Shown: positions 34,856 to 51,854 of the stretch, piece by piece
Numbering within the stretch: the first letter of the stretch is position 1
How the letters are laid out: the number at the start of each line of letters is the position of its first letter
Source: Actinokineospora inagensis DSM 44258
GTDB taxonomy: Bacteria; Actinomycetota; Actinomycetes; Mycobacteriales; Pseudonocardiaceae
Assembly (NCBI RefSeq): GCF_000482865.1
Contig: NZ_KI519520.1
Span: forward strand, 27,023-91,022
Reading direction: 5' to 3'
Length of the DNA stretch: 64,000 nucleotides
Position numbers and translations under genes: made by a program
Notes under the pieces: model-generated
Seen by the model: the letters and a program-made list of their open reading frames with translations, nothing else
Database searches by the model: none
What the model was told of the DNA's origin: nothing

Positions 34856-34886
34856 GGGTGCTTGTTCCTTCCTCCGGGGCGGGGGC

Positions 34887-35368: not shown

Positions 35369-35390
35369 ATCAGGCGCATGAGCGAGAGGC

Positions 35391-36203: not shown

Positions 36204-36221
36204 CTACCGGGAATCCGGTAG
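36204..36221 (+). terminator. Short hairpin at the DUF3050 stop
   Basis: CTACCGG (36204-36210) pairs perfectly with CCGGTAG (36215-36221) across a 4-nt GAAT loop, starting at the base after the TGA. It is short for a terminator and could instead be an operator for the EF-hand gene. Confidence 0.45.
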
Positions 36222-36350
36222 GGCTAATGGAAATACATCCGAATAGGTGATACGCGTACCGGGCCGGCATGGGCATGCGTTGCTAGTGTCCCCATTGCGG
36301 GCCACTTCGTTCGGTTCCGCGCACAGCCAAGCACACGAAGGAGCAAGGTC

Positions 36351-36887
36351 GTGACCGCTAGCGTCCAGGACAGCCGGTTGAAGCGCCGATTCGAACTCTG
36401 GGACACCAACGGGGACGGGTCGATCGACCGCTCGGACTACGAGACCGAGGCACGCCGAATCCTGCAGGGCTTCGGCGAGCAGGAGAACTCCCCCAAGGGT
36501 CGGGCGCTGCTCTCCGCGTACACCGGCATGTGGGACACCCTCGCGAGCAAGGCCGGGGTGAACTCGGGCGGCCAGGTCACCCTGGACCAGTTCATCCAGA
36601 TCACCGACTCCGAGATCGCCCACGGCGGCGACTCCGGCTTCGACCGCAACCTGCGCCCCACCATCGAGGCCATCGTCGACATCTGCGACACCGACGGCGA
36701 CGGCGAGGTCAGCCCCGCCGAGTTCAAGCGCTGGATGCGCGCCGCAGGCGTGGACGAGCGCCAGGCCGAGCAGGCCTTCAGCCAGCTCGACAGCAACCAC
36801 AACGGCTCCCTGTCCGTGGAAGAACTCGTCGACGCCGTGCGCGACTACCACCAGGGCAAGCACGACATCTCGCTGCTGGGCAAGTAA
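36351..36887 (+). CDS. EF-hand calcium-binding protein (calerythrin-like)
   Basis: A 178-residue protein with four EF-hand positions. Loop 1 DTNGDGSIDRSD (about 20-31), loop 3 DTDGDGEVSPAE and loop 4 DSNHNGSLSVEE look functional, whereas loop 2 (NSGGQVTLDQF) is degraded. This three-functional-plus-one-dead layout is that of actinobacterial calerythrin, a Ca2+ buffer or sensor. The GTG at 36351 follows AAGGAG at about 8 nt. It is monocistronic and ended by a hairpin. Confidence 0.9.
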   Translation: MTASVQDSRLKRRFELWDTNGDGSIDRSDYETEARRILQGFGEQENSPKGRALLSAYTGMWDTLASKAGVNSGGQVTLDQFIQITDSEIAHGGDSGFDRNLRPTIEAIVDICDTDGDGEVSPAEFKRWMRAAGVDERQAEQAFSQLDSNHNGSLSVEELVDAVRDYHQGKHDISLLGK

Positions 36888-36899
36888 ACCCAGTCGCCC

Positions 36900-36935
36900 C
36901 ATCGCCCCGAGCGCCCACCGGCTCTCGGGGCGATG
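36900..36935. terminator. Hairpin between convergent EF-hand and flavin genes
   Basis: A perfect 12-bp stem, 36900-36911 (CATCGCCCCGAG) with 36924-36935, and a 12-nt loop. Confidence 0.8.
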
Positions 36936-36998
36936 CCGCGTCTACAGTGGACTGGGTGGTCGGAGTACCAGGGGACCGGTACGGGGTGGGTCTACCGG

Positions 36999-38276
36999 TC
37001 AGCGGCGGAATGAGGCCAGGAGGGTGCGGCCGAGGATGGTGGGGGTGAGCATGTCCGCGGGGCGGATTCGCATGTTGATGACCTCCACGAAACGTCGGGC
37101 GACGACGGGGTCGGTCATGGCGGCGTGGTCGATGGCGGCGGACAGGGCTCGTTGGAGGGGGAAGGTGCGGGGGCGGGGGGCGGTGACGTGCGGGAGGCGG
37201 AGGTCTTCGGTGGTGCTTGTCGTCCAGCCCGCGTCGGTGATGACTTTGAGGTGGCGGAGGTAGGTGGTGATGGGGTCGCCCGTGGTCAGCCAGGAGGAGA
37301 GGGCTGAGGCGTGCAGGGTGGCGGCGGTGATGCCCTGGCCGTAGATGGGGTTGAAGGAGGCCACGGCGTCGCCGACGGGGAGGAGGTTGCGGGGGAAACG
37401 GGGGAGCAGGTGGAAGTCGCGGCGGAGGCTGTGCGGGAAGCGGTAGGGGATGACGGGACCCGCGGGGGCGCACGAGTCCACGAGGGTGGTGAAGGCGGGG
37501 GCGGGTTCGGCGTGGCAGCGGGACGTGAACTCGGCGCGGTCGCGGGTGGGGCGGTCCGGGCCGTAGCCGGAAACGGTGCAGATCCAGCGGTCCGGGCCGA
37601 GGGGGGCGACGCAACTGACCCCGGGGGACGGGGAGGACGGCGACCGTACCGAGTGGACACACAGGAGGTCGTCGAGGCGTTGACCGGGTGCGCGGTGGAA
37701 CAGGGCTGTCGCGTAACCCAGGTCGAGGTTGACGCGGCGGCGCGGCGGGCCGGGGTGGTCCAGGGCCGCCAGCCAGGAGCCGAGCCTGCTGCCGCGGCCG
37801 GTCGCGTCGACGACGAACGCGCACGCCATCTCCGCGCCGGACGCCAGGCGGACGCCGGTGATCTCGGTGGTGCCGGTGAAACCGACGACCCGGTCGGACA
37901 CGAGCCGCACGGACGGCAGCACGGCGCGGCGGATGTGCCACTCCAGCAGCGGGCGGTGGATCGGCATCAGGCGATCACCCGGGACCGGCGGGCGATCCCG
38001 GCCGTCGACCAGCATCCGGCCGTCGGACAGCGGGTCGCAGACCACGGCGCCGTCGCGGGCCAGCGCGGCCTGCAGGTCGGGGAACCAGTGGGTCAGCAGG
38101 TCCTGGGCCTGGCCGAGCAGCATGTGGAACTGGTCGCCGTGCGCGGCCCCCGGGCGGTTGACCGGTGACGCGGGCAGGGCGTCCGGCTCGACGACCACCA
38201 CCTCGTCCACCCAGTCGCGCAGGACCCGGGCGGCGAGCAGGCCCGCGACGCTGCCGCCCGCGACGACGGCCCTCAC
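36999..38276 (-). CDS. Class A flavin monooxygenase/epoxidase-like protein
   Basis: A 425-residue FAD enzyme. It has the dinucleotide fold GGSVAGLLAARVL (7-19), the second FAD contact LLPVGDAVASFNPIYGQGI and FVVDATGRGSRLG. The last pattern is found in PHBH-fold hydroxylases and in epoxidases of the LasC type. The C terminus ends at 425, typical for the latter group. The GTG at 38276 overlaps the previous stop (GTGA). It is the last gene of the left operon, probably an oxidative tailoring step. Confidence 0.8.
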   Translation of the reverse strand: MRAVVAGGSVAGLLAARVLRDWVDEVVVVEPDALPASPVNRPGAAHGDQFHMLLGQAQDLLTHWFPDLQAALARDGAVVCDPLSDGRMLVDGRDRPPVPGDRLMPIHRPLLEWHIRRAVLPSVRLVSDRVVGFTGTTEITGVRLASGAEMACAFVVDATGRGSRLGSWLAALDHPGPPRRRVNLDLGYATALFHRAPGQRLDDLLCVHSVRSPSSPSPGVSCVAPLGPDRWICTVSGYGPDRPTRDRAEFTSRCHAEPAPAFTTLVDSCAPAGPVIPYRFPHSLRRDFHLLPRFPRNLLPVGDAVASFNPIYGQGITAATLHASALSSWLTTGDPITTYLRHLKVITDAGWTTSTTEDLRLPHVTAPRPRTFPLQRALSAAIDHAAMTDPVVARRFVEVINMRIRPADMLTPTILGRTLLASFRR

Positions 38277-38668
38277 GACGACTGGACGAACTGGACGGGG
38301 GACTCCGGCGACAGCGCGATCTGCGCGCCGGTGACCGGCTGTTCCGCGCGGATCAGGATGTTGTAGTGGTTCGGGAAGTGGCACGAGTCGAAGCCGAGGA
38401 CCCGGCCGACGACCTGGTCGCCGATGCGGACCTCGTCGCCCCGGTCGATCACCCCGCCGTGGTGGATCTCGGCGAACCCGAGGAAACCGACCCGGTCGAT
38501 GCTGGGGTCGCCGACGGTGTGGTCGGTGGTGACCAGCTCGTGCACCTCGCCCCGCCGCACGCACCGGCTGGCGAAGTCCTCCAGGCGCATGCCCCGGTCG
38601 TCGCGGCTGTGCACCAGGACCTTCACCAGGACCCCGGACACCGTGCGCTTGCTGCCGTCCTCGATCAC
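38273..38668 (-). CDS. Small conserved protein (possibly DUF6917)
   Basis: A 131-residue, probably beta-rich protein. Recognisable blocks are SGVLVKVLVHSRDDRGMRLE, CVRRGEVHELVTTDHTVGD, VGFLGFAEIHHGGVI and DSCHFPNHYNILIR. From memory these match DUF6917, but I cannot verify this. GTG at 38668 overlaps the upstream stop by 4 nt and follows GGGGAGAA. Conserved His and Cys (HxxxNHYN, SCHF) hint at metal or ligand binding. Both neighbours are coupled to it, so it is part of the pathway rather than incidental. Confidence 0.65.
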   Translation of the reverse strand: MIEDGSKRTVSGVLVKVLVHSRDDRGMRLEDFASRCVRRGEVHELVTTDHTVGDPSIDRVGFLGFAEIHHGGVIDRGDEVRIGDQVVGRVLGFDSCHFPNHYNILIRAEQPVTGAQIALSPESPVQFVQSS

Positions 38669-39591
38669 GACTTCTCCCCGATCAGCGCGGGCCGCGACCA
38701 CTGCTCGGCCCGGTAGGCGGCGTCGACCAGCGCCAGGGCGGCGAGGCCATCGCGGTCGACCCCGCCGGTGTGGATGGCCACGGTGAACGCGCGCAACACC
38801 CCGGCGTACTCGTGCCACAGCGACTGCTTGAACCCGGCGAACCCGGCCAGCATGTCCGCGCGGTGCACGGCCCCGTCGGCCAGCCGGACCTCCAGGTCCT
38901 TGGTCTCGCCGCGGTGGTCCCAGTCCAGCTCGACCACCGCCCGCGCCCCGCTCTCGGCGGCCAGCTCCACCACGGCCCGCCGGTCGACGCCGTGCGCGTC
39001 CCGCCGGATGTCCACCCCGCCCACCTGCAGGGTGCCCAGCAGCAGCCGGACCAGGTCGAACGCGTTGGGACCGTTGTCGGCGACGCAGCCGCCGCCGCAG
39101 CGGGCCGGGTCGAGGTACCAGCGGTCGGCGCCGACGTGGTCCTCGATCCGCTCCAGGTACCGCACCCGCACCGACTCGATCGGCACCCCGCGCGGCAGGC
39201 TCTCCAGCAGGGCGCCGACCCGGGCGTTGTACCGGCGGTGGAACGAGGTGAACAGCACCGCGCCCCGGGTCGCCGCCAGCTCGGCCAGCGCCAGCCCGTC
39301 CCGCAGCCGGGTGGCCAGCGGCTTCTCCACGCACACCGGCAGCCCGGCGTCCAACAGGTCGAGGCACACCCCGGCGTGCTGGTCGTTGGGCACGGTCACC
39401 ACCACGCCGTCCAGGCCGCCCGCGGCGATCATGTCCCGGTGGTCGCGCCAGCACGGCACCTCGTCCCGGTACGGGGCCAGCGCCTCCGGCCGCACGTCGC
39501 ACACCGCGCCCAGCCGCAGCGGGCCGCCCTCGCCCAGCGCCGCCAGGTAGTACCGGGAGATCACGCCGAGCCCGATCACGCCGATCCGCAT
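38665..39591 (-). CDS. Gfo/Idh/MocA oxidoreductase 1
   Basis: A 308-residue NAD(P)-dependent dehydrogenase of sugars or cyclitols. It has Rossmann GVIGLGVISRYYL (4-16), EKPLAT with the catalytic Lys and the SFHRRYNARV block. The C-terminal alpha/beta half supplies the remaining substrate residues. The ATG at 39591 overlaps the previous stop (TGATG). With the DegT aminotransferases in the opposite operon it could make a keto-sugar or inosose for transamination. Confidence 0.85.
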   Translation of the reverse strand: MRIGVIGLGVISRYYLAALGEGGPLRLGAVCDVRPEALAPYRDEVPCWRDHRDMIAAGGLDGVVVTVPNDQHAGVCLDLLDAGLPVCVEKPLATRLRDGLALAELAATRGAVLFTSFHRRYNARVGALLESLPRGVPIESVRVRYLERIEDHVGADRWYLDPARCGGGCVADNGPNAFDLVRLLLGTLQVGGVDIRRDAHGVDRRAVVELAAESGARAVVELDWDHRGETKDLEVRLADGAVHRADMLAGFAGFKQSLWHEYAGVLRAFTVAIHTGGVDRDGLAALALVDAAYRAEQWSRPALIGEKS

Positions 39592-40691
39592 CAGCCCACC
39601 TCCGGCAGCGCGACACCCAACCGGTCACCCAGCTCCACCAGCTCCGCGTACAACTCGCCGCTGAGCGGGACCCCCTCACGGCGGGACCGCTCCGCCCGGC
39701 GGGCCTCCGGTACCCCCGGGTAGGACACCTGCCCGTCCGGCTGGACCGGCGGGCAGGCCAGCAGCGCCCCGAACAGCGACCCCGCCTCCCGCTGGTAGGT
39801 GCCCGGCTGCCGCAGCGCGGCGGGGGCGACGGCGAGCACGAAGTAGCCGATGTCGTCGTCCGGCGCGCGGTCGACCGACAGCGCCGCCTGGGACGGGCCG
39901 AGCCCGGCACCCGGCACCAGCGCGGCCAGCACCTCCACCATCAGGCCGAGGCCGAACCCCTTGTGCTGGTCGCCGAGCCAGGTCAGGTGCGCGGTGCCGT
40001 CGTCGAACCGGGTCGGGTCGGTGACCGGCTCGCCCGCGTCGTCGACCAGCCAGCCCGCCGGGACGTCGACCCCGGCGCGGGCCGCCGCCCTGACCTTGCC
40101 GGTCGGCACCGTGGTCGTGCTCATGTCCAGCAGGAACGGCGGGTGCTGACCGGCGGGCGCGGCGACGCTGAGCGGGTTCGTGCCCAGCATCGGCACCCGG
40201 CCACCCGGCGGCCGCGTGATCCGCTGGTGCCCGCAATTGGCCGCGACCACGCCGATCATCCCGTGCGCCACCGCCCGCATCGCGTGCGGGCCTGCGCAGC
40301 CGAAGTGCGTGCCGCCGCGCACCGACACGAGCCCGATCCCGAACTCCCCCGCCCGCTTGGTGGCCAGGTCCATCGCCTCGCCCGCCAGCCACAGCCCCAG
40401 CGCGCCCTGACCGTCGAGCAGCACGGCGGCGCCCCGGTCGGACAGTACGCGCGGCTCCGCGTCCGCCCGAGCCCGTCCCGATGCCAACAGCGGCAGGTAG
40501 ATCCGGCTCAGGTTGGTGAGGCCGTGCGAGGTCATGCCGACGATGTCGCCGTGGCACAACGCCGTCGCGGCCGCCTTGGCCCGCTCGGGCGGGATGCCGT
40601 GCGCGCTGAACACCGCCGAGGTGAAGCGGAGCAGGTCGTCGTGCGGGACCCGCACGGTGGTCACGGGCAGGGCCTGGTCGAGGTCCGTCAT
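39591..40691 (-). CDS. Ldh2/malate dehydrogenase-like NAD(P)H oxidoreductase
   Basis: A 366-residue Ldh_2 (PF02615) family enzyme, which reduces 2-keto acids, imino acids or related substrates. Family blocks are SHGLTNLSRIYLPLL, GQGALGLWLA, VSVRGGTHFGCAGPHAMRA, GTNPLSVAAPAG and DQHKGFGLGLMVEVL. The ATG at 40691 overlaps the M20 gene stop as ATGA. A role in forming a hydroxy-acid or amino-acid-like building block of the cluster product is inferred. Confidence 0.85.
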   Translation of the reverse strand: MTDLDQALPVTTVRVPHDDLLRFTSAVFSAHGIPPERAKAAATALCHGDIVGMTSHGLTNLSRIYLPLLASGRARADAEPRVLSDRGAAVLLDGQGALGLWLAGEAMDLATKRAGEFGIGLVSVRGGTHFGCAGPHAMRAVAHGMIGVVAANCGHQRITRPPGGRVPMLGTNPLSVAAPAGQHPPFLLDMSTTTVPTGKVRAAARAGVDVPAGWLVDDAGEPVTDPTRFDDGTAHLTWLGDQHKGFGLGLMVEVLAALVPGAGLGPSQAALSVDRAPDDDIGYFVLAVAPAALRQPGTYQREAGSLFGALLACPPVQPDGQVSYPGVPEARRAERSRREGVPLSGELYAELVELGDRLGVALPEVG

Positions 40692-41962
40692 GGTGCTGCC
40701 GTTCTGGTTGTGGCCGGGGGATCGGGTGGGGCCGGGGGATTGAGTGGAAAGGTGCGCAAGATCCGCGACACCTGGTCGGCGAACGCGGAGAGGTCGCCGA
40801 CGGCGACGAACTCGCCGTCGGCGTGGGCGTTGTTGGCGGCGAGGTCCCCCGGGCCGAGGACCGCGGTGGCGGTACCGGGGACGCCGGACATCCAGATCGC
40901 GTCGCACGTGAACGCGGGCTCGGTCTCGGGCCAGGCGGGGATACCGGCGCCGGTCATCACCGCGTCCAGCCAAGGATGCTTGCCCGACAGTGCCGGTAGG
41001 CCGCGTTTGAGCCAGTCGACCGTGGTTACCCGTGCGGCGTCCGCGGCCGTGCGGGCCAGTTCCGGTACCGACGCGAAGGTCTCACCGAAGCGGGTAAGAC
41101 CGTCGGCGACAGCACGATCCAGTGCCGCGGTGAGTTGTTCGCCGTCGTCCGCGTAGGCGAGGTTCACCAAGAGGTCGCCACTGCCGTACACGCGGTTGTG
41201 CCGGGTACCGGTGTGCAGCCCGGCGATGCACGCCTGGCCACCGGCGAGTTGACCCGCCAGGTGCTGGGCGAGGTAACCGAGCAACACGGTCGCGTTGTGG
41301 CCGTCGCCGGGGCGGTCGTCGATGGAGCCGGAGCCGGTAACCCTGACTCGCGCGGTAGCCGACGCGGTGGCTCGTGGCAGGTAGCGCAAACCGGTTGGTT
41401 CGCAGAAGACGTTCAGGGCGCCGTAGTAGCCGAGTTCGATGAGCGGGCGCGTCCCGAAGGTGCCCATCGCGCCGCCCTCCTCACCGGAGACCGCTTGCAC
41501 CAGAACGGAGATCTCACGGCCGATACGGCGGTCTCGTTTCGCGGCGTCACGGATACCCGCCAACAACGCCACAGCGGGCCCCTTGGCGTCGACGGCGCCG
41601 CGACCTCTTACCACGGCGCCGTCGTAGTGCCCGGGTTCATGCCCGGCGACGGTGTCAAGGTGGACGTTGAACATGACGGTCGGCGCGTCCGCCGGTCCCA
41701 TGCGCAACACGAGGTTCGGTTGCCCCGCGAGGAAAGACGGGTTCTCCGCCGCCGCGCGTACCGCCGCCGGTACACCTGGCAGCCGCAGCACCGAGGGATC
41801 AGCGGGACCGTGGTGCACGACGGTGAACCCCGTCGCCGCGTCCGCGTAGAGGTACTGGCACTCCCACAGCAGCGCGGGCTCGACGCCCTCCATCGGGCCC
41901 GCCGTGGGCAGGTTGATCAGCCGGAGCAGCAACGCCGCGTCGGCATCGGTGAACTCGGCCAC
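40688..41962 (-). CDS. M20-family metallohydrolase
   Basis: A 424-residue amidohydrolase/deacylase. Di-zinc ligands are expected in FNVHLDTVAGH, GRGAVDAKGP and SGEEGGAMGT (general-base Glu), with later FCEPTG. The lid domain lies at about 190-320. Relatives deacylate N-acyl amino acids or amino sugars (ArgE/DapE type). GTG at 41962 lies 1 nt after the isomerase stop. It may remove an N-acyl protecting group or amide-bound amino acid in this pathway. Confidence 0.85.
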   Translation of the reverse strand: MAEFTDADAALLLRLINLPTAGPMEGVEPALLWECQYLYADAATGFTVVHHGPADPSVLRLPGVPAAVRAAAENPSFLAGQPNLVLRMGPADAPTVMFNVHLDTVAGHEPGHYDGAVVRGRGAVDAKGPAVALLAGIRDAAKRDRRIGREISVLVQAVSGEEGGAMGTFGTRPLIELGYYGALNVFCEPTGLRYLPRATASATARVRVTGSGSIDDRPGDGHNATVLLGYLAQHLAGQLAGGQACIAGLHTGTRHNRVYGSGDLLVNLAYADDGEQLTAALDRAVADGLTRFGETFASVPELARTAADAARVTTVDWLKRGLPALSGKHPWLDAVMTGAGIPAWPETEPAFTCDAIWMSGVPGTATAVLGPGDLAANNAHADGEFVAVGDLSAFADQVSRILRTFPLNPPAPPDPPATTRTAAP

Positions 41963-41963
41963 G

Positions 41964-42794
41964 TCACCGGCCCGTGGTGGCGAGCAGGGTCTCCAACGCG
42001 CGCCCGGCCGCGATGAACCCCTCGGCCGACCCGGACCCGCTCTCCTCTTCGTGCGGCAGCAGACCGAGGTGCGGTTCGATCGACAGCGCGCCCTGGTAAC
42101 CGCTCTCGGTCAACACATCCAGGCACTCGGCGACGTCGGCGGTTCCCTGGCCCGGCAGCGTCCACCGGGGACCGTTCGCGTCGGTGACCCCGTCCTTCAC
42201 GTGGACGTGGGCGACGTACTCGACAAGAGGCCGCAACTGCTCCACCGCCGAATAGCCATAAGCGATGCCGTTACCGGTGTCGAACAGCAGCCGCAAACCG
42301 GGGCTGTCGGCCTCTTCCAGCATCCGCAACGCCCGCTCGGACTCGCTACCGGCCCACCCGGCGCAGTTCTCGTGCAGCAACACCAAGTCCGCCTGCTCCG
42401 CGCGCAACGCCAACTCGCGCATCCGGCGCAGCGCCCGGTGCTCCCACTCGTCGGCGTGCAGGCCGTCGTTCGGGTACGACATGACCCGCACGTACCGGGT
42501 GCCCAACCGGCCGCAGCGGTCCGCCAACACCCGCAGCTCCGCCAGGTCACGCCCGAAGTCACCGGTGATCACCGAGGACCAGTCGCCGATCCGCGAGTCG
42601 ACGCAGACCGTGCGCAGCCCCAACTCGGCCAGCGTGCCCGCGACCCGGTCGAACGCCGCCTCGGTCAACCCGGCCAGCGGCACCCCGTCCACCGTGCGCA
42701 GCTCGATCGCCGACCAGCCCAGCGCCGCGATCGCGGCGACCTGCGCGGCCAACCCCGGACCGGCCTCGTCCCCGATCCCGGCCAGCACCGTCAC
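41964..42794 (-). CDS. Xylose-isomerase-like TIM barrel protein
   Basis: A 276-residue AP-endonuclease-2/xylose-isomerase-like barrel. Metal ligands are probable in VLLHENCAG (Glu), LLFDTGNG (Asp), HVHVKDG (His) and LSIEPHLG (Glu). Relatives include inosose isomerase or dehydratase and hydroxypyruvate isomerase. The GTG at 42794 overlaps the stop of Gfo/Idh 2 by 4 nt. Epimerisation or isomerisation of a keto-sugar or inosose is the natural guess. Confidence 0.8.
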   Translation of the reverse strand: MTVLAGIGDEAGPGLAAQVAAIAALGWSAIELRTVDGVPLAGLTEAAFDRVAGTLAELGLRTVCVDSRIGDWSSVITGDFGRDLAELRVLADRCGRLGTRYVRVMSYPNDGLHADEWEHRALRRMRELALRAEQADLVLLHENCAGWAGSESERALRMLEEADSPGLRLLFDTGNGIAYGYSAVEQLRPLVEYVAHVHVKDGVTDANGPRWTLPGQGTADVAECLDVLTESGYQGALSIEPHLGLLPHEEESGSGSAEGFIAAGRALETLLATTGR

Positions 42795-43810
42795 CGCTCG
42801 ACCCCCACCGGCACCCGCAACCCGGCCCGCCGCTTCGCCTCCGCCACCAGCACCGCCACCGCGACCCCGGTCGCGGGCTCGTCCACGATCGGCTCCTCGC
42901 CCTCGAAATGCCGGTACACGCGGGTGAAGAACGCGGCCAGCGAGTCGTCCCGGAACACCGAGTCGACCTTGCCGCCGCGCGTGCGCACCGACAGTTGCGC
43001 GTACTCGTCGGCCGCACTGATCGGGTAATGACCGACCAGGGTGCCGCCCTCGAGCTCGACCGTCATCCGGCGCTCCCGGACCGGTGACGTCAGATCCGCG
43101 CGGATCTCGGTGTGCACACCGTCCGCGTGCCGCAACCGCAGCCACGCGCTGCCCATCGCCGGGAACACCGCGTCGCCCAGCAGCATGTCGGCGCACCCGG
43201 CACCCAGCACCTCGGCCCCGCCGGCCAGCATCAGCGCGACCGTCAACGAGTGCGGTAGCTCGACGTCGAACGCGCTCGGGTGGTCGTCACCGGCCAGGGT
43301 TCGCGCGAACCGCGGCTTCGACTGCACGAACTCCACCGACTTCAGCCGCCCCAACCGGCCACCGCGCAGCACACCCAGCACCCGCGCGGTCAGCTCGCTG
43401 CACCGCCACTGCGCCACCGGGACCAGGTCCAGCCCGGCCTGCTCACGCAACCGCAGCACCTCGCGCAGCTCCACCTCGTCGACCGCCAGCGGCTTCTCCA
43501 CCAGGAACCGGCGGAACCCCAGGTCGGCCAGCTCGGTCAGCGGCCGCAGCCGCGCCGACGGGCCGGTGCACAGGTGCACCACCGTCCGCCGTGGATCGAT
43601 CATGGTGGCCGCGTGCGCCAACGAGTGCGCGACGGCCACATCGGACGGTCCCGACGGCTCGGCGGGCTCGTCCGGCCCGCGCTGCGGGTCGTAGACCGTG
43701 ATCGGCGGCTGCCCGTACGGCCTGCCGCCGCCGTGCCCGAGCTTGCGCAGCACCGGCAGGTGCAGGCCCGCGCCTGCCCTACCGAGCCCGACCACCAGGG
43801 TGCCCAGCAT
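42791..43810 (-). CDS. Gfo/Idh/MocA oxidoreductase 2
   Basis: A 339-residue dehydrogenase and first gene of the left operon. It has Rossmann VVGLGRAGAGLHLPVL (6-21), VEKPLAVDEVEL with catalytic Lys and the PHSLTVALML segment in the substrate domain. It is not closely alike Gfo/Idh 1, so a different carbon may be oxidised. The ATG at 43810 follows GAGGAGG at 10 nt. Divergent from the first DegT gene across a 349-nt control region. Confidence 0.8.
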   Translation of the reverse strand: MLGTLVVGLGRAGAGLHLPVLRKLGHGGGRPYGQPPITVYDPQRGPDEPAEPSGPSDVAVAHSLAHAATMIDPRRTVVHLCTGPSARLRPLTELADLGFRRFLVEKPLAVDEVELREVLRLREQAGLDLVPVAQWRCSELTARVLGVLRGGRLGRLKSVEFVQSKPRFARTLAGDDHPSAFDVELPHSLTVALMLAGGAEVLGAGCADMLLGDAVFPAMGSAWLRLRHADGVHTEIRADLTSPVRERRMTVELEGGTLVGHYPISAADEYAQLSVRTRGGKVDSVFRDDSLAAFFTRVYRHFEGEEPIVDEPATGVAVAVLVAEAKRRAGLRVPVGVER

Positions 43811-44159
43811 GGGTGGCGTGCCTCCTCTGGCCGACCGCGGGACGGGCCAACCCTGGTGGGCACCCGGTGGGCGTGTCAACGCGGACCCCGGACCGCCACA
43901 CGACCGTGTGATCTTTTGATTTCCTTGCGGCGCAACGGATGCCGACCGCCTAGTTTGGACGGCGCGTGTCCTGGCGCGGGGAGTGTCCGGGACACGCGCC
44001 GGAACGGGTGGGTCCGGGTCGGTGCCGTCGGTGTGGTGGACCGGCTCGGGACCGATCGCGCGGGCCGGTTGGGCACAGGGGTCGGTCGGGTACGCGGACC
44101 GGTCGGGACGCAGGTCGACCGGGAGTGAGCGGTCGGTCGGGGACACGCAGAGGACGATC
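43811..44159. promoter_or_regulatory. Shared control region of two divergent operons
   Basis: TAGTTT (43951-43956) is a good -10 for the right operon, preceded by an AT-rich stretch (43911-43925). A perfect 11-bp inverted repeat, 43961-43971 with 43990-44000, begins at the predicted start of that transcript. The leader to the first ATG is then about 200 nt and G-rich with repeated ACCGGTCGGG-like words. No small ORF or known riboswitch is evident. Confidence 0.5.
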
Positions 44160-45353
44160 ATGGAGCACGCCGCGGTAGTCGCGGACCGGGGGACCGCCGC
44201 CGCGCCCGCGGTGCCCTTCTTCACCCAGGCGGCGTCGTTCACCGCGCTCTGGCCGTCGGTCCGGGCCAACCTGGACGCGGTGGTCGACCGCGGCAAGTAC
44301 TCGCACGGCCCGCTGGTCGGCCGGTTCGAGCGGGCGCTGGCCGAGCACATCGGCGCCGCGCACGTGGTCGGCGTCAACTCCGGCACCGACGCGCTGGTGC
44401 TGCTGCTGCGCGCGGCGGGCCTGGAGCCGGGTGACGAGGTCGTGGTGCCCGCGTACAGCTTCGTGGCGTCGGCGTCCTCGGTGGTGCTCGCGGGCGGCCT
44501 GCCGGTGTTCGCCGACGTCGACCCGCTCAGCTACGGCATCGATGTCGACACGGCCGCGACCACCGGCGCCACCCGGATGGTCATGCCGGTGCACCTGTTC
44601 TGCCAACTGGCCGACCTCACCGCCGTCGCCGAGTTCGCCCAGCGGCACGCGCTCACCGTGGTCGAGGACAGCGCCGAGGCCATCGGCATGCGCTGGGACG
44701 GCGTGCACGCGGGCCTGCACGGCGCGGGCGGGGTGCTGTCGTTCTTCCCCACCAAGACCCTCGGCGCCCTCGGCGACGCGGGCGCGGTCATCACCAACGA
44801 CGACCGGATCGCCGAGACCGCCGCCGCGCTGCGCCACCACGGCAGGCACGGGCACACCCTGGACAACTTCCCCGGCATCTCGAACGAGACCGTCCTGCCC
44901 GGACTCAACAGCAAGATGGACGACATCCAGGCCGCCGTCCTGCTGGCCAAACTGGACCGGTTGGACGCCGACATCGCCCGCCGCAACCGCCTCGCCGCGC
45001 TGTACTCGGACGGCCTGCGCGGCTGCCCCGGTGTGCGGCGGCTCCCGGTGGTGGTCGACCGCGACGTCGACACGAACCCGGTGTTCTACGTGTACCTCGT
45101 CGAGGTCGAGCACCGCGACGCGCTGGCCGCCTACCTCGCCGCGCACGCGGTCGGCACCGAGACGTACTACCCGGTGCCGCTGCACCTGCAACCCTGCTTC
45201 GCGCACCTGGGCTACCGCCGCGGCCAGTTCCCCCGCGCCGAGGCCGCGTCCGCCACCGCCATCGCGCTGCCGCTCTACCCGGACCTCACCGAGGCCCAGG
45301 TCGACCGGGTGTGCGCGGTGGTCCGCGGGTTCTACGGCGGGGGTGGGGCATGA
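44160..45353 (+). CDS. DegT/DnrJ/EryC1/StrS aminotransferase 1
   Basis: A 397-residue PLP aminotransferase acting on keto-sugars or cyclitols. The PLP Lys is K199 (SFFPTKTLGALGDAG), with NSGTDAL (73-79), EDSAEAIG and the KMDDIQAA motif. All catalytic parts are intact. The ATG at 44160 has AGAGGAC before it and is preferred over upstream codons in the leader. First gene of the right operon; its stop overlaps the second aminotransferase (ATGA). Confidence 0.9.
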   Translation: MEHAAVVADRGTAAAPAVPFFTQAASFTALWPSVRANLDAVVDRGKYSHGPLVGRFERALAEHIGAAHVVGVNSGTDALVLLLRAAGLEPGDEVVVPAYSFVASASSVVLAGGLPVFADVDPLSYGIDVDTAATTGATRMVMPVHLFCQLADLTAVAEFAQRHALTVVEDSAEAIGMRWDGVHAGLHGAGGVLSFFPTKTLGALGDAGAVITNDDRIAETAAALRHHGRHGHTLDNFPGISNETVLPGLNSKMDDIQAAVLLAKLDRLDADIARRNRLAALYSDGLRGCPGVRRLPVVVDRDVDTNPVFYVYLVEVEHRDALAAYLAAHAVGTETYYPVPLHLQPCFAHLGYRRGQFPRAEAASATAIALPLYPDLTEAQVDRVCAVVRGFYGGGGA

Positions 45354-46474
45354 CGCTGCCGTTCTTCCCGCCGGACCTCTTCGACGACGAGCGGGACGTG
45401 TTGCTGGAGACGGTGTTCCGCATCGGCACCGCCCCGGCGCAGCGGTTCATCCTCGGCGAGCGCACGGCCGCGTTCGAGCAGGCGCTGCGGCTGCAGTTGG
45501 GCGCCGCGGACGTGATGGCCTGCGGGAGCGGGACCGCCGCGCTCACCCTGGTGCTGGGGGCCATGGGTGTCGGGCCGGGCGACGAGGTGGTGGTGCCCGC
45601 GTTCGGGTGCGCGCCGCTCGCGTCGTCGGTCGTGTCGGTGGGGGCGACGCCGGTGTTCGCCGACGTGCACCCGTGGACCATGGTGGTCGAGCCGTACGAG
45701 GTGGAGGCGGCGATCTCGGCCCGCACCGCCGCGATCATGCCCGCGCACATGTTCTCGGTGATGGCCGACATGCCCACCATGCGGGCGCTGGCCGACCGGC
45801 ACTGCGTCCGGCTGGTCGAGGACTCCGCGGTCGCCCAGGGCGGCACGCTGGCCGGGGTGCCCGCGGGCCGCTGGGGCGACGCGGGGGTGTTCTCGTTCGT
45901 CCAGGTCAAGACGTTCGGCACCGCCGGTGAGGGCGGTGCCGTGGTCACCGACGACCCGGAGCTCGGTCGGCTGGTGCGGATGCTGCGCAACCACGGCCAG
46001 GACGGCCGCGACCGGTTCGTGCACCACGTCATCGGGCACAACAGCCGGTTCGACGAGGTGCTGGCCGACTTCCAACTGCACCGGCTGCCGGGGTTGGCGG
46101 GCAGGCTGCGCAGGCGCGCCGAGATCGCCGACTACTACACCGAGCGGTTCGCGCCGCTGGTCGAGCGCGGCGTGCAGCCCCCGCCGCCGGGCCGCGACGG
46201 CCGCTGCTTCTACGTGTACTCGCTGCTGGCCGACCGCCGCGACGACCTGAAGCGGCACCTGACCACCCGGGGCGTCGGCAGCCACGTCTACTACCCGGCG
46301 CCGCTGCCCGCGCAGCCCGCGTTCGCCCGGTACGCCAAGCCCGGCCAGTACTGGCCGCACGCGGAACTGGCGTCCGCGCGCACCCTCGCCCTGCCCATCT
46401 ACCCGCACCTGACCGACGCCCAGGTCGAGCACATCGCCGACGCGGTCTGCGACTTCCCAGGAGGCCCGCGATGA
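45350..46474 (+). CDS. DegT/DnrJ/EryC1/StrS aminotransferase 2
   Basis: A 374-residue paralogue, clearly diverged from the first. The PLP Lys is K187 (SFVQVKTFGTAGEGG), with GSGTAAL (59-65) and EDSAVAQGG. N and C termini are complete. Two such enzymes next to each other suggest two amination steps or two keto substrates, as in the diaminocyclitol pathways. Coupled by 4-nt overlaps to both neighbours. Confidence 0.88.
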   Translation: MTLPFFPPDLFDDERDVLLETVFRIGTAPAQRFILGERTAAFEQALRLQLGAADVMACGSGTAALTLVLGAMGVGPGDEVVVPAFGCAPLASSVVSVGATPVFADVHPWTMVVEPYEVEAAISARTAAIMPAHMFSVMADMPTMRALADRHCVRLVEDSAVAQGGTLAGVPAGRWGDAGVFSFVQVKTFGTAGEGGAVVTDDPELGRLVRMLRNHGQDGRDRFVHHVIGHNSRFDEVLADFQLHRLPGLAGRLRRRAEIADYYTERFAPLVERGVQPPPPGRDGRCFYVYSLLADRRDDLKRHLTTRGVGSHVYYPAPLPAQPAFARYAKPGQYWPHAELASARTLALPIYPHLTDAQVEHIADAVCDFPGGPR

Positions 46475-47409
46475 CGATGCCGTTGTCGCCGATCGGCGTC
46501 AGCAGAATCGGTGCCTACGCCCGGTTGGCGAAACTCGACGTCTGGGACTACTACCTGGCGCTGCCGCTCGCCTGGTCGCTGGCCGGGTTCACCCCCGGCG
46601 CGTTCGCGGTGCTGCTCGTGTTCGGGTTGGGCACGGTGTGCCTGGTCGCGGGCTCGGTCGCGTTCGACGACGTCACCGGCTACCGCGACGGCAGCGACGC
46701 CGCCAACTACGGCCAGGACGCGCCCAGCCGGGGCCTGGCCCGCAAACCGCTGCTCACCGGCGAGCTGACCGAGGCGGACGCGATCCGGTTCGGCTGGCTC
46801 GCGGTCGGCACGGGCGGCGCGCTGTGGCTGCTGGCCGCGGCGGTGGCCCCGAGCGCTCCACTGTGGACACTCGGGCTGGCCGCGCTGTGCTTCGGGTCGG
46901 CCGCCCAGTACTCCTGGGGGTTGAAGATCAGCTACCGCGGCTGGCAGGAGGTGTTCCTCGCCGGTTTCGGCGCCGGGCTGGTCCTGGTCGGCCAGGGGCT
47001 GTGCACCGGTCACGCCACCGGGTTCGGCGTCGTGCAGGCCGTCCTGTTCGGACTCGGACCGCTGATGTTCGGCGTCTACTCGAACACCCAGGACGCCGAC
47101 GCGGACGCCGCCGTCGGCAGGCCCACCGTGGCCGCCCTGGTCTCGGCGCGGGCGAACCTGGTGTTCATCGCGGCGCTCACCGTCGCCGAACTGCTGCTGG
47201 TGATCACCGTCACCGGGCTCGGCCCGGCGCCGTGGTGGTTCGCCCTGCTGATGCTGCCCGCGATGGGGGTCCGGGTCCACCAACTGCGCCTCGGCGTCGG
47301 GCTCGGCGACCTGCTCGCCGCCCGCCGTCTCGGGCTCTACGCCCATCGCCTCACCGCCGCGACGCTCGTCGCGGTGAACCTGATCAGTGTGGTTGGAGTC
47401 GGCTCGTGA
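46471..47409 (+). CDS. UbiA-family prenyltransferase
   Basis: A 312-residue integral membrane protein with about eight transmembrane helices. The two Asp-rich motifs are present: DDVTGYRDGSD (66-76) and NTQDADADAAVG (205-216), so it should bind a prenyl diphosphate with Mg2+. The acceptor is unknown; both motifs depart from the classic NDxxDxxxD, suggesting an unusual acceptor. The ATG follows AGGAGG and overlaps the preceding stop. Confidence 0.85.
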   Translation: MTMPLSPIGVSRIGAYARLAKLDVWDYYLALPLAWSLAGFTPGAFAVLLVFGLGTVCLVAGSVAFDDVTGYRDGSDAANYGQDAPSRGLARKPLLTGELTEADAIRFGWLAVGTGGALWLLAAAVAPSAPLWTLGLAALCFGSAAQYSWGLKISYRGWQEVFLAGFGAGLVLVGQGLCTGHATGFGVVQAVLFGLGPLMFGVYSNTQDADADAAVGRPTVAALVSARANLVFIAALTVAELLLVITVTGLGPAPWWFALLMLPAMGVRVHQLRLGVGLGDLLAARRLGLYAHRLTAATLVAVNLISVVGVGS

Positions 47410-48716
47410 GCCCTGACCTCGATGTCGCCGTTGTCGGAGCCGGGCTCGCCGGGCTCGCCACCGCCCACCGGCTGCGTGCCCAGGGCCGCTCGGTGCACGT
47501 GTTCGAGTCCGCCGACCAGGTCGGCGGCCGGATGCGCACCCTCCGCCAAGACGGCTACACCGTCGACACGGGCGCCGAGATGCTCAGCAGCAGCGGCTAC
47601 CAGGCCACTTGGCGGCTGCTGGCCGACCTCGGCATCGAGGAGGAGCACGTGCCGCTGATCGGCCGCGGCATCGCCGTCTGGCGCGAGGGCAAGCCGCGCA
47701 AGCACGTCGGCGACCTGCGCGGCCTGTTCTCCGGCGCGGGCCTGTCCACCGCGGCCCGGCTCAACCTGGTCGGCATGCTCAGCAACGCCACCCTGCGCCG
47801 CCGCTCGTACAGCGTGGACCGGCCGGAGCGGACCCCGTTGGGCACCCAGACCATCGCCGAGGTGGCCCGCGGCGACCTGCACGACTACCTGCTGCAGCCG
47901 CTCTCCGGCGGCTTCTTCGGCTGGGACACCTCGGTCGCCTGCGCGGGCCCGCTGGTCAGCCACATGCTCGCGGTCGGCCCCACCAAGACGCTGCGCAGCT
48001 ACGACGGCGGCATGGACTTCCTCACCCGGCTGCTGGCCGAGCAGGTCGAGGTCAGCACCGGGGTCGCGGTCCGCGAGGTGGTCACCACCAGCACCGGCGC
48101 CCGCCTGGTCGCCGACAAGACCCCGCTCACCGCGCGCACCGTGGTGCTGGCCGTGCCCGCCCCGGTCGCCGCCGAACTGCACCCCGAGGCCCCCGAGTAC
48201 GTCCACCTGTGCCGCTACCAGCCGATGATCAAGCTCATCTGCCTGCTGGACCGGCCGCTGACCGGCGCGGGTCGGGCGTTCGCGCTCGCCGTCCCGGCCG
48301 TGGAGAACCCGCTGCTGGCCGGGGTCGTGTTCGACGACCGCAAGAACCCGGACCGGGTGCCCGAGGGCGCGGGCATGGTCACCCTGGTCGCCTCGCCCGG
48401 CTCGGTCGCGGGCCTGCTCGACCAGGGCGACGACGAGATCAGCCGGGTGCTGATCGCCGAGGCCGAGCGCTATGTGCCGGGGGTCGCGCACGCCCTGCGC
48501 AGCACTGTCGTCGTCCGGCACCAGTACGGCCTGCCGATGCCGACCGCCGAGGCCATCGCCATCCGCGGCCGGTTCGCCGTCCGCCCGGTCGTGCCGGTCG
48601 AGTACGCGGGCGACTGGTACACGCTGCGGCCGAGCAGCGAGTCCGCCGCCCGCTCCGCCGAGATCGTGGTCGACCGGCTGGCCACCGCCGTCCAGCCGGT
48701 GACGGCGGGCGGCTGA
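47406..48716 (+). CDS. PPO/amine-oxidase-like flavoprotein
   Basis: A 436-residue FAD enzyme of the protoporphyrinogen-oxidase/monoamine-oxidase fold. It has AVVGAGLAGLATAHRL (8-23), ESADQVGGRMRTL, DTGAEML and a C-terminal FAVRPVVPVEYAGDWY block. The nearest relatives by motif are desaturases or oxidases of hydrophobic substrates. Its place just after UbiA suggests oxidation of the prenylated intermediate. GTG start overlaps the UbiA stop. Confidence 0.8.
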   Translation: MSPDLDVAVVGAGLAGLATAHRLRAQGRSVHVFESADQVGGRMRTLRQDGYTVDTGAEMLSSSGYQATWRLLADLGIEEEHVPLIGRGIAVWREGKPRKHVGDLRGLFSGAGLSTAARLNLVGMLSNATLRRRSYSVDRPERTPLGTQTIAEVARGDLHDYLLQPLSGGFFGWDTSVACAGPLVSHMLAVGPTKTLRSYDGGMDFLTRLLAEQVEVSTGVAVREVVTTSTGARLVADKTPLTARTVVLAVPAPVAAELHPEAPEYVHLCRYQPMIKLICLLDRPLTGAGRAFALAVPAVENPLLAGVVFDDRKNPDRVPEGAGMVTLVASPGSVAGLLDQGDDEISRVLIAEAERYVPGVAHALRSTVVVRHQYGLPMPTAEAIAIRGRFAVRPVVPVEYAGDWYTLRPSSESAARSAEIVVDRLATAVQPVTAGG

Positions 48717-48717
48717 G

Positions 48718-49500
48718 ATGACCATCGGGTACGTGTTCGCGACCCCGTTCTCCCGGGAGGGCGAGCGGCTGTCGCTGGGTGAACTGCTCTGGGACCCGGG
48801 CACCACCAGCAGGCTCGCCGACCTGGTCGGGCCGGGCACCCGCTGCCTGGAGGTGGGCGCCGGGCGCGGCTCGATCGCGGGCTGGATGGCCGCCCGCGGC
48901 GCCGACGTCACCGCCGTCGACCTGGACGCCTCCCGGCTGGACTGGCTGCGCGCGCGTGGGGTGAGCGTGCACGAGTGCGACATCACCGTCGACGCGTTGC
49001 CGGGCAGGCGCTACGACGTCGTGCACGCCCGGCTGGTGCTGCAGCACGTGCGGGACCGCGCCGAGGTGGTCCGCAGGCTGTGCGCGGTGCTGCGGCCGGG
49101 CGGGCACCTGGTGCTGGAAGACACCGACACGGCCACGACGCTGGGCACGGTGCAGGGTGTGCTCCGGCCGGACGTGCGGGCCGCCGCCTACGCCGTGATG
49201 GCCGAGTCCGGCTACCACCCGCGCTGCGGCCTGCTGGACGTGGACCTGGCGCTGCGCGCCGGGTTGGTCGACGTGCACGCCGAGGGCCGGGCCGAGGTCG
49301 TCGGCGGTGGGACCCCGGCCGGGCGCTGGTTCGTGCTGTGGCTCGAACACCTCCGACCCGCCATGGTCGCGGCCGGTCAGGTGTCCAGTGTGGACATCGA
49401 CGCCGCGGTGGCCGAGCTCGGCGACCCGGACCTGCGCTGGCTGTCCCAGGTCATGATCACCGTCATCGGTCGGAAGGCAGCCGATGTGCTCGCCGCGTGA
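48718..49500 (+). CDS. Class I SAM-dependent methyltransferase
   Basis: A 260-residue methyltransferase. Motif I is EVGAGRGS (45-52), the acidic loop is AVDLDASR, and motif post-I/II is HARLVLQHVRDRAEVV with LRPGGHLVLEDTD. The C-terminal part caps the active site. It resembles Methyltransf_11/25 O- or N-methyltransferases. The ATG at 48718 lies 1 nt after the flavoprotein stop. Confidence 0.85.
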   Translation: MTIGYVFATPFSREGERLSLGELLWDPGTTSRLADLVGPGTRCLEVGAGRGSIAGWMAARGADVTAVDLDASRLDWLRARGVSVHECDITVDALPGRRYDVVHARLVLQHVRDRAEVVRRLCAVLRPGGHLVLEDTDTATTLGTVQGVLRPDVRAAAYAVMAESGYHPRCGLLDVDLALRAGLVDVHAEGRAEVVGGGTPAGRWFVLWLEHLRPAMVAAGQVSSVDIDAAVAELGDPDLRWLSQVMITVIGRKAADVLAA

Positions 49501-49515
49501 GCCGGGAGGCCGGTG

Positions 49516-51108
49516 ATGGCCGGGCCGACCGAGCTGGGCACCCTGTTCGACGACCTGCTGGCCCGCCGGGTCAAGACCGTCGTGCGGCTGGCGCGACCGC
49601 TGGACATCGCGCCGGAGTTCGGCACCCGCTACGACATCGCCGCGCTGGCCGGGCTGGTGCGCAACGTCGCCGGGTGGTTCGCCGCGGCCGGTGTGCGGCC
49701 GGGCGACCGGATCGCCGTGGTCAAGCCGAACCACTGGGACTACGTGCTGCTCGCCTGCGCCGCCGCCAGGGTGGGCGCCGTGCCCGCGCTGCTGTCCGAC
49801 CAGGTGGCCCCGCACACGCTGGAGGTCATGCTGGAGCGACTGGACCCGGCGCTGCTGGTGACCACCCGCACCGTGCTGGACACCGCCAAGTCGCACGGCA
49901 TCACGCTGATCGCCAAGGCCGCCCACACGATCACCCTGGACGGCCGTCACCCGGACACGATCAACCTGGACCGGCTGCGCGGGCACGAACCACCAGCCCC
50001 GGTCACCCGGGACGACGACGACCCACTGGTCATCACGCACACCTCCGGGACAACCGGCGTCCCGAAGCTGGTCGCGCACACCAACCGCACCCTGCTCATC
50101 GGGTTGGCAGGCGCCGAATCCACCCGGCTGCCGATCGTGTCGGCCCGGCGGCGGGACACGGTGTGCTCGGCCATCTCGTTCGCGCACGGCCGCGCGGTGC
50201 CGTGGACGGCGAGCGCGTTCTGGTTGGCCCCCAGGGAAATCGTCATCGTCGACTCGGCGGACACCGCCGAACCGCTGCTGCGCGAACACCCCCCGACCAC
50301 CATCGAGGCGCTGCCGTCCACCTACGTGCGGTGGCGGCCGCTGGTAGAGCGCGACGACCACCCGTTCCGCGACGTCCGGCTGTTCGTCAGCACCTTCGAC
50401 GCCATCCACCCCCCGGTCGTCCGGGCGTTCCTCGGCGCGACCCGGCGCAGACCGCTGTGGGTGCAGGTGTGGGGCCAGACCGAGACCGGCCCGCTGACCT
50501 TCCGGTTCCTCACCCGCCGCTCCATCGCCCGCCGCGACCGCAGACACCCCACCACCCGCAACCTCGGCCGCCCGGTCCCCGGCCGCGCCCGCCTGCGCGT
50601 GGTCGACCCGCGCACCCTCGCCCCCGTCCCGCGCGGCACCCCCGGCATCGTCCTCGCCCGCACCCCCACCCTCGGCCTCGACTACCTCGGCGAACCCGAC
50701 CGCTGGACCGACAAACTCACCCCCGACGGCTGGTGGAACACCGGCGACATCGGCGTCCGCACCCGCCTCGGCTCATTCCTGCTGCTGGACCGCGAGGTCG
50801 ACGTCCTCCCCGGCCAGAGCTGCGTCGAACTGGAAGACGTCCTCGAAGACCGCGTCCCCAACGTCGTCGAGTGCGTGGTGCTCGGCACCCCCGGCAGACT
50901 CCCCCAACCGGTCATCGTCACCGAAGACGGCAACCTCGACCCGACCACCTGGCGCCAAGCCCTGCACGACCTCCCCGCCCTCGCCGACCCGGTGGTCCTC
51001 CCCTGGGAGCAGATCCCGCGCACCGCCACCGGCAAAGTCCGCCGCATGGAACTCCGCGCCGTCATCCGCACCGGCCAAGACACCTTCGGCACCGGCCGCT
51101 GGACCTGA
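49516..51108 (+). CDS. AMP-forming acyl/aryl ligase
   Basis: A 530-residue ANL-family ligase. The P-loop is THTSGTTGVPK (174-184), followed by WGQTETG, NTGDIG and LLLDREVD. The C-terminal lysine motif TATGKVRRMEL is intact, so it should adenylate a carboxylate. The substrate is unknown and no carrier protein is nearby, so CoA or an amine acceptor is likely. I chose the ATG at 49516, 6 nt after GGGAGG, over the GTG one codon earlier. Last gene of the right operon. Confidence 0.88.
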   Translation: MAGPTELGTLFDDLLARRVKTVVRLARPLDIAPEFGTRYDIAALAGLVRNVAGWFAAAGVRPGDRIAVVKPNHWDYVLLACAAARVGAVPALLSDQVAPHTLEVMLERLDPALLVTTRTVLDTAKSHGITLIAKAAHTITLDGRHPDTINLDRLRGHEPPAPVTRDDDDPLVITHTSGTTGVPKLVAHTNRTLLIGLAGAESTRLPIVSARRRDTVCSAISFAHGRAVPWTASAFWLAPREIVIVDSADTAEPLLREHPPTTIEALPSTYVRWRPLVERDDHPFRDVRLFVSTFDAIHPPVVRAFLGATRRRPLWVQVWGQTETGPLTFRFLTRRSIARRDRRHPTTRNLGRPVPGRARLRVVDPRTLAPVPRGTPGIVLARTPTLGLDYLGEPDRWTDKLTPDGWWNTGDIGVRTRLGSFLLLDREVDVLPGQSCVELEDVLEDRVPNVVECVVLGTPGRLPQPVIVTEDGNLDPTTWRQALHDLPALADPVVLPWEQIPRTATGKVRRMELRAVIRTGQDTFGTGRWT

Positions 51109-51854
51109 CCCGTTGGCCCGCACCGAGCCGCTTCGACGACCCTTGGCGGTTCGCGTTGAGCCGCGCCTCGATGGCGGCTGTTGGCTTGCGCCAAGCGCTT
51201 CGATGACCCCTCCGTTGGCGCGCACTGGGCCGCGCCTCCGGTGACGCCTGTTGGTCGGCAGTGGGCCGCACCCCGACTACCGCCCTTCGCGCGTTCGCCT
51301 GGCCAGTCCGGACACGGCCGCGCTGGTGGCTCCGGCCGGTTGTCCACACTCCACCGGGTTGTCCACAGCAGCCCCCGTCCCCCTCTTGACAACCCGCGAT
51401 TCGCGCTACGGTCAGGAATGGGCCCCCGAACCCCGGGTGGGTGGGCGCTGCGTGGACCCGGGTGGGGTTAATGTCAAGAGCTCGCGCCTGCGGATTGGCC
51501 GGATGCGGGCTCGACGGGTTGGTTGGGCGGGGCTCGGTGAGATGGCCGGATGTGAGTTTGACGGGTTGACTGGGCGGGTTTGATGGGTTGGCCGGATGCG
51601 GTTTCGGCGGGTTGGTTGGGCGGGATTCGGTGGGGTGGCCGGATATGGGGTCGGCGGGCTGGTCAGGTGGGGTTCGGTGGGGGTGGCCAGATGCGTCGAT
51701 GGGTTGGCTGGGCGGGGGTCGGTGCTGGGCCGGGTGCGGTGAGTCGTGGTCGGGCGGGTAGGTGTGGGTGAGCCGGGGCGCGGGTGAGCGGGCGCACCGG
51801 GGGTGGTCGGGGTCGAGTGGACGGAGGGCCGGGGTGGGGTGGCGGCGTGGGCGG
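51109..51854. other. 746-nt intergenic region rich in repeats
   Basis: No gene. 51109-51300 holds three or four degraded copies of a GTTGGCxCGCACTGGGCCGC-like word. Two perfect DnaA-box 9-mers lie at 51340-51348 and 51359-51367. A TTGACA (51387 region) with TACGGT downstream is promoter-like. The rest is the tandem array at 51492-51724. Confidence 0.5.
51492..51724. repeat. Tandem repeat of about 46 bp, five units
   Basis: Units begin GGGTTGGTTGGGCGGG and contain TGGCCGGATG(T/C)G; successive units are 45-47 bp and differ at several positions. Strongly G-rich on the + strand. Confidence 0.8.

Follow-up and report, generated by a model that had tools for sequence, protein, structure and literature searches.

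Two divergent operons of Actinokineospora inagensis form one conserved cluster, probably for an isoprenoid-tailed, amine-bearing metabolite

Streptamine-type pathways use two Gfo/Idh and two DegT enzymes. In the Wbp pathway, UDP-N-acetylglucosamine (UDP-GlcNAc) is processed by a 6-dehydrogenase, then by a 3-dehydrogenase and next by a 3-aminotransferase (PMC10622841). Polyprenyl transferases associated with encapsulins are also known (PMC8346489). In this study, we analyzed a stretch of 64,000 nucleotides (hereafter the window) from Actinokineospora inagensis DSM 44258 (RefSeq assembly GCF_000482865.1, contig NZ_KI519520.1, positions 27,023–91,022), in which 13 genes at window positions 36999–51108 form two divergent operons. 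These operons are one cluster, which is kept together in many soil actinobacteria. With moderate confidence, we propose that the cluster directs the biosynthesis of an isoprenoid-tailed, amine-bearing metabolite, in which a nucleoside diphosphate (NDP)-hexuronate would be oxidized, aminated, reshaped, prenylated and tailored. No published description of the cluster or its product was found in the literature searched, subscription papers being mostly outside its reach.

The two operons leave a gap of 349 nucleotides (43811–44159) between their starts, for which we picked start codons from the list of open reading frames. Eight of the 11 within-operon junctions are overlaps (seven of 4 nucleotides and one of 1 nucleotide), two are 1-nucleotide gaps and one is a 12-nucleotide gap. 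A previous reading of this DNA that used no database searches (the sequence-only reading) had described 13 outward-pointing genes with short overlaps, and our coordinates and frames agree with it. It had also stated that no polyketide synthase, nonribosomal peptide synthetase or terpene cyclase is present; none of the first two and no soluble terpene cyclase was detected among the genes scanned. The occurrence of each gene was analyzed in a species-level collection (84,980 species, each represented by a single genome), which yielded 221 DUF6917 loci, the best 80 of which were examined. They come from Streptomyces, Amycolatopsis, Saccharopolyspora, Lentzea, Kitasatospora and other genera; this selection favors close relatives, with nine Actinokineospora loci (L048–L056) among the 80, and right-hand genes are undercounted because of the 10-kb flanks and short contigs.

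The minus-strand operon starts at 43810 with Gfo2, a divergent, putative Gfo/Idh-like dehydrogenase (42791–43810; 77/80 loci). It is followed by Iso, a xylose-isomerase-like triosephosphate isomerase (TIM) barrel (41964–42794; 77/80), an M20 metallohydrolase (40688–41962; 78/80), an Ldh2-family dehydrogenase (39591–40691; 79/80), the Gfo/Idh/MocA dehydrogenase Gfo1 (38665–39591; 80/80), a DUF6917 protein of 131 residues (38273–38668) and finally a flavin monooxygenase-like protein with weak Pfam and NCBIfam matches (36999–38276; 14/80). The plus-strand operon encodes the aminotransferases DegT1 (44160–45353; 74/80) and DegT2 (45350–46474; 73/80), a UbiA-family prenyltransferase (46471–47409; 50/80), an amine-oxidase/protoporphyrinogen oxidase (PPO)/HpnE-like flavoenzyme (47406–48716; 47/80), an S-adenosylmethionine (SAM) methyltransferase (48718–49500; 16/80) and an adenosine monophosphate (AMP)-forming ligase (49513–51108; 17/80), the last four counts being limited by the flanks. 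Pfam matches (DegT twice, UbiA, Amino_oxidase, methyltransferase, AMP-binding, Ldh_2, M20, AP_endonuc_2, GFO_IDH_MocA for Gfo1, and DUF6917) back the family assignments of all 13 genes except Gfo2 and the flavin monooxygenase.

To investigate whether the operons belong together, we analyzed a family draw of 249 genomes, with limits of our own choice for homologues of UbiA (E ≤ 1e-25) and DegT2 (E ≤ 1e-90). DUF6917 was present in 64 genomes, a UbiA homologue in 68 and a DegT2 homologue in 65; both UbiA and DegT2 homologues occur in 61 of the 64 DUF6917 genomes, and in 57 of these 64, DUF6917 and UbiA lie no more than 20 kb apart. Fisher tests of co-occurrence gave P-values of 4e-46 and 3e-49, which overstate independence since the genomes are related. 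The DUF6917 genomes in which UbiA and DegT2 homologues were not detected at these limits are G025, which has a colinear set, and G606 and G662, where only part of DUF6917 is matched. DUF6917 is lacking in seven of the 68 UbiA genomes and four of the DegT2 genomes. Both DegT genes also accompany the left core under other gene orders (L057, L112, L117, L143), and L042 has the colinear order UGDH-Gfo2-DegT1-DegT2-Iso-M20-Ldh2-Gfo1-DUF6917. The same gene set recurs across genera, implying more than chance. The single cluster of two operons postulated by the sequence-only reading is thereby borne out, and the blocks whose recurrence it had proposed to check (the small protein, Ldh2, UbiA and paired DegT genes) do recur. 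All 16 genomes of the genus contain DUF6917. On the other hand, in an evenly spread sample of 396 genomes from the phylum, either of the two cluster genes searched was found only in the genome of A. inagensis itself, so the system is patchy. In three loci (L136, L140, L151), cluster genes are missing or fragmentary and apparently decaying.

The core enzymes resemble those acting on nucleotide sugars. Sugar aminotransferases (2oga, WbpE and QdtB) are among the best PDB matches of both DegT1 and DegT2, the third match of DegT1 being glutamine-scyllo-inositol transaminase. The nearest PDB entry to Gfo1 is 3q2k, which we take to be WlbA, and Gfo1 also matches glucuronide-3-dehydrogenase. A lysine is kept in the alignments of both DegT proteins, and sets of metal-ligand-like residues are kept in Iso and M20. 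Gfo2 has a weak PDB match to a putative oxidoreductase (E 0.028) and conserved EKP and PH motifs, which we take to be marks of Gfo/Idh proteins; from these motifs it is accepted as Gfo/Idh-like. An NCBIfam scan of the minus-operon proteins gave weak matches to inositol 2-dehydrogenase and IolE models. No carbocycle cyclase was found among the scanned genes, although other pathways of the cell could supply inositol. Oxidation and transamination of a sugar or a cyclitol had been suggested earlier: the sugar is favored by the PDB relatives of the DegT proteins and a linked nucleotide-sugar dehydrogenase, whereas the cyclitol is less likely because of the missing cyclase.

Several lines of evidence link the cluster to isoprenoid metabolism. 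UbiA matches PF01040 with 58.9 bits (cut-off 34.2), and both of its Asp-rich motifs are kept among 53 sequences. In six of the 80 loci (L060, L080, L083, L101, L114, L123), dxs lies directly 3' of DUF6917. It also follows DUF6917 directly in L046 and in L047, where DUF6917 is split into two pieces. The spacing varies between an overlap of 4 nucleotides and roughly 130 nucleotides of intervening sequence. Six of these eight loci contain ispG, and among the 89 loci compared, ispH occurs in five and a prenyl synthase in four. An in-frame fusion with DUF6917 at the N-terminus of Dxs was found on plasmid NZ_CP107870.1 of Streptomyces sp. NBC_00490 (L129:15031–17358). This plasmid contains one row of DegT, DegT, methyltransferase, UbiA, AMP ligase and nucleotide-sugar dehydrogenase genes, a second row of Gfo2, Iso, M20, Ldh2 and Gfo1, and an MMPL transporter gene. 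Because of the genes of the methylerythritol phosphate (MEP) pathway in related operons, the DUF6917-Dxs fusion and the kept Asp-rich motifs of UbiA, the branch that contains the window's cluster very likely makes an isoprenoid product. Of the final decoration proposed by the sequence-only reading, prenylation is supported by UbiA, though the core also occurs elsewhere without this gene; an acyl step gained no support. A succinate dehydrogenase set, possibly a resistant target copy, adjoins the core genes on the same plasmid (L129:23661–27027).

The borders drawn in the sequence-only reading were too narrow on both sides. To the left are a nucleotide-sugar 6-dehydrogenase (UGDH-like; 33614–34855, minus strand; 51/80 loci), whose closest PDB structures are Cap5O and CalS8, a small, probably secreted protein without a Pfam match (34887–35216, minus strand; 46/80), and an EF-hand protein identified by Pfam (36351–36887, plus strand; 62/80). 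A DUF3050 protein, also identified by Pfam (35391–36203, plus strand; 8/80), appears auxiliary. This left block is inverted yet still joined to the cluster in three loci (L032, L037, L041). To the right, a prenyl diphosphate synthase gene of the encapsulin-cargo type, similar to geranylgeranyl diphosphate (GGPP) synthases (55650–56765, minus strand; NF041169, 494 bits, cut-off 450), is accompanied by two family 2B encapsulin shell genes (56881–59731, minus strand; NF041163 above cut-off twice) and by a second IspH gene, probably for isoprenoid supply (54451–55638, minus strand; NF002188 above cut-off, PF02401), one of two LytB (IspH) matches in the genome. A gene for a NACHT-domain membrane protein (51762–54479) separates the cluster from the encapsulin genes. 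In 14 of the 16 Actinokineospora genomes, UbiA shares its contig with a close homologue of this synthase gene, at a distance of no more than about 25 kb; in the exceptions (G001 and G004), cluster and synthase are on different contigs. Of 13 stretches of the genus fetched beyond the cluster, five contained an IspH relative, as does the window, and 11 had one or more shell genes. Elsewhere in the window, a protein with an IniB N-terminal domain adjoins a dynamin/Era-like GTPase (14728–17818), a pair which presumably recalls mycobacterial iniBAC.

Comparison of the genus revealed that part of the cluster behaves as a module. In three Actinokineospora genomes (G002, G004 and G008), the main cluster lacks M20, Gfo1 and DUF6917; Iso is absent from it in two of them, and G004 shows a short match of 45%. 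Each of these split genomes has a divergent Iso-M20-Gfo1-DUF6917 set at a second locus, with 43–54% identity to the genes of the window, and contains one Gfo1 (E ≤ 1e-60) and one DUF6917. In a phylogeny built from joined fragments of Gfo1, M20 and Iso (43 sequences from chosen loci), the second-locus copies group with L042 (support 1.0). The simplest reading of these sequences is that a copy of foreign or ancient origin took the place of the module; this would imply that Iso, M20, Gfo1 and DUF6917 work together and are needed.

The core is also separable from the prenyltransferase. Core sets without UbiA were found in L042, Rhizobium and Kitasatospora-type loci, so prenylation is one branch, and the core apparently supplies a building block for different modules to finish. 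A CMD-family protein is present in 16 of the 89 compared loci; UbiA is missing from the flank in 15 of these, L058 being the one with both genes. A different AMP ligase occurs in ten loci, and the flanks of eight of these lack UbiA. Gfo1, Gfo2 and M20 matches were detected on three Rhizobium plasmids. On pT136b, the only one read, the order is Gfo2-DegT-DegT-Iso-M20-Ldh-Gfo1, and the core is accompanied by EctB, an EgtD-like methyltransferase, a major facilitator superfamily (MFS) transporter and an ATP-grasp protein. In L138 (8439–19061), a DegT1-DegT2 pair lies beside genes for a carrier protein, an AMP ligase and an ATP-grasp protein; the paired DegT genes seem to be reused in another cluster there.

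The DUF6917 protein clearly belongs to PF21891 (E 1.4e-53; 180.5 bits, cut-off 27). An AlphaFold2 model built from 45 sequences is all-beta with a mean predicted local distance difference test (pLDDT) score of 93.5; it replaced a single-sequence model with a pLDDT of 49.8. Foldseek, which is weak on small beta proteins, found no PDB match to the model at E ≤ 0.001 (best 0.19); the protein may have a new fold. Among its invariant residues are H20, R22, R25, C36, H43, E44, D94, C96, H97, N100, H101 and N103, which suggests a catalytic or metal site. C-glycoside deglycosidases consist of a TIM-barrel alpha subunit and a small beta subunit; a role of DUF6917 as such a beta subunit found no Foldseek PDB match at the same threshold, where the weakness of the method on small beta proteins also applies. 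A second association of DUF6917 with a thiamine diphosphate (TPP) enzyme was observed on a plasmid of Thermomicrobium roseum, where a DUF6917 protein precedes a TPP enzyme (L131:9938–12185).

From the observed gene content, catalytic-looking residues, co-conservation, modularity and isoprenoid-gene linkage, we infer the reactions, their order and the product. The nucleotide-sugar dehydrogenase would form an NDP-hexuronic acid, whose ring hydroxyls would be oxidized by the two Gfo/Idh enzymes (C3 probably being among the sites), and the resulting ketones would be aminated by the two DegT enzymes, following the logic of WbpA/WbpB/WbpE. Iso, M20, Gfo1 and DUF6917, together with Ldh2, may then remove the nucleotide, rearrange the carbon frame and hydrolyze an amide, giving a small polar building block. 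UbiA would add a prenyl group, in the genus probably from the adjoining GGPP synthase, and the amine-oxidase-like flavoenzyme, flavin monooxygenase, methyltransferase and AMP ligase would finish the molecule. A bolder version, which we regard as a long shot, is that Iso-M20-Gfo1-DUF6917 is a new module, with DUF6917 an unseen fold, that converts a 3-keto nucleotide-uronate to a nitrogen-bearing ring, and that the ring is prenylated by UbiA (in the genus with GGPP from the encapsulin-associated synthase) to give a widespread undescribed class of quinone-like antibiotics.

Some observations weigh against the proposed route. The enzyme families named by the sequence-only reading were mostly recovered by Pfam, but Gfo2 has no Pfam or NCBIfam match and the flavin monooxygenase matches Trp_halogenase below the cut-off (E 5e-4), so that both are poorly classified. 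UbiA scores only 23.0 and 21.4 bits with the MenA equivalogs of NCBIfam (cut-offs 555 and 277). Isoprenoid attachment is not universal, as indicated by the core sets without UbiA, and no DUF6917 match was found on Rhizobium plasmids, where the core set read (pT136b) has no nucleotide-sugar dehydrogenase beside it. Homologues of the GGPP-like synthase are present in 191 of the 249 family genomes, the genus included, but outside the genus none among the matches listed (compared by eye) lies within 100 kb of the cluster; the linkage is therefore a feature of the genus. The core sets in L042 and Rhizobium, and the seven UbiA genomes without DUF6917, might even suggest two unrelated operons lying side by side by chance. 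This is extremely unlikely in view of the co-location of DUF6917 with UbiA and the persistence of DegT1 and DegT2 with the left core, also where the gene order differs.

Other products are conceivable for a true cluster. In a cell-envelope route, a diamino-uronic acid would be placed on a polyprenyl-phosphate carrier, UbiA acting like decaprenyl-phosphate phosphosugar transferase. The similarity of the dehydrogenase to Cap5O and of the DegT proteins to WbpE fits this idea, as do the MMPL transporter on the NBC_00490 plasmid and the presence of DUF6917 throughout the genus, as for a structural trait. However, no glycosyltransferase, flippase or polymerase was found among the scanned genes, the system has a single carrier in the phylum draw, UbiA matches MenA models, albeit weakly, and related operons contain dxs, ispG and ispH, so we consider the envelope route doubtful. 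The weak matches of UbiA to MenA and of the methyltransferase to UbiG, together with the flavin monooxygenase, could instead point to an aromatic nitrogen ring (e.g., a hydroxypyridine acid) made from the amino-uronate and processed by UbiA, monooxygenase and methyltransferase in the manner of quinone biosynthesis. The product would inhibit the respiratory chain, and the succinate dehydrogenase set by the core on the Streptomyces plasmid could then serve self-resistance. That set was found in one record only, the scores stay below the equivalog cut-offs and no enzyme of known aromatizing function was identified, which makes such a product unlikely. Oxidation and double transamination of inositol followed by prenylation, a streptamine-type aminocyclitol route, is very unlikely: two Gfo/Idh and two DegT enzymes are the streptamine pattern, and the inositol 2-dehydrogenase, IolE and glutamine-scyllo-inositol transaminase matches agree, but the scanned genes include no cyclase, and a nucleotide-sugar dehydrogenase is linked instead.

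The divergent gap contains a palindrome, CACACGnnCGTGTG (43897–43910), followed by ATCTTT, a candidate operator that may be shared by both operons. It is perfect in 11 of the 13 single-locus genomes of the genus, the window included, and has one mismatch in the other two; its presence in a divergent gap common to genus members suggests joint control. The split genomes retain 10, 11 and 10 of the 12 fixed palindrome positions, where random 300-base stretches of the window reach 10. Among 92 divergent gaps from chosen loci, some genomes being represented twice, the palindrome is not kept in most other genera. The 7.28-Mb genome of A. inagensis has CACACGnnCGTGTG at three places. With up to two mismatches, the window contains four matches (11.2 expected), and only that at 43897 has fewer than two mismatches; therefore, no second palindrome copy marks the left block. 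Within 33400–51400, no sigma-70-like site was detected (mean of 0.4 in shuffles) and two terminator-like sites were found versus 3.0 expected. None of the 17 genes checked contains a TTA codon.

The proposed route would place this cluster in a pathway family that recurs among the 80 loci examined and joins nucleotide-sugar amination to UbiA prenylation. It gives DUF6917 a testable biochemical setting, and the split clusters provide a natural experiment for assigning the four-gene module. Among known systems, the UDP-2,3-diacetamido-2,3-dideoxy-uronate pathway (Wbp/Wlb; WbpA, WbpB, WbpE, WbpD, WbpI) shares with it, by sequence, relatives of the 6-dehydrogenase, the Gfo/Idh 3-dehydrogenase and the DegT 3-aminotransferase, and the cluster may work like the first half of that pathway. 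Since a Pfam scan of the 13 genes and their neighbors revealed no WbpD-type N-acetyltransferase or WbpI-type 2-epimerase, the cluster, judged by its genes, is not a member of the Wbp pathway; it also adds a second Gfo, a second DegT, Iso, Ldh2, M20, DUF6917 and UbiA. Streptamine-type aminocyclitol clusters have the same two Gfo/Idh and two DegT genes but differ in the cyclase and the linked dehydrogenase discussed above. Menaquinone/ubiquinone-type prenylation (MenA, UbiA) is similar in the UbiA family with both Asp-rich motifs and in the MEP-pathway genes of related operons, whereas UbiA of the window falls far under the MenA equivalog cut-offs and its acceptor is apparently sugar-derived. 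Finally, the synthase next to the cluster and the two shell genes score above the cut-offs of the NCBIfam models for a family 2B encapsulin with polyprenyl transferase cargo, a system which is here tied to an amino-sugar/UbiA cluster within one genus.

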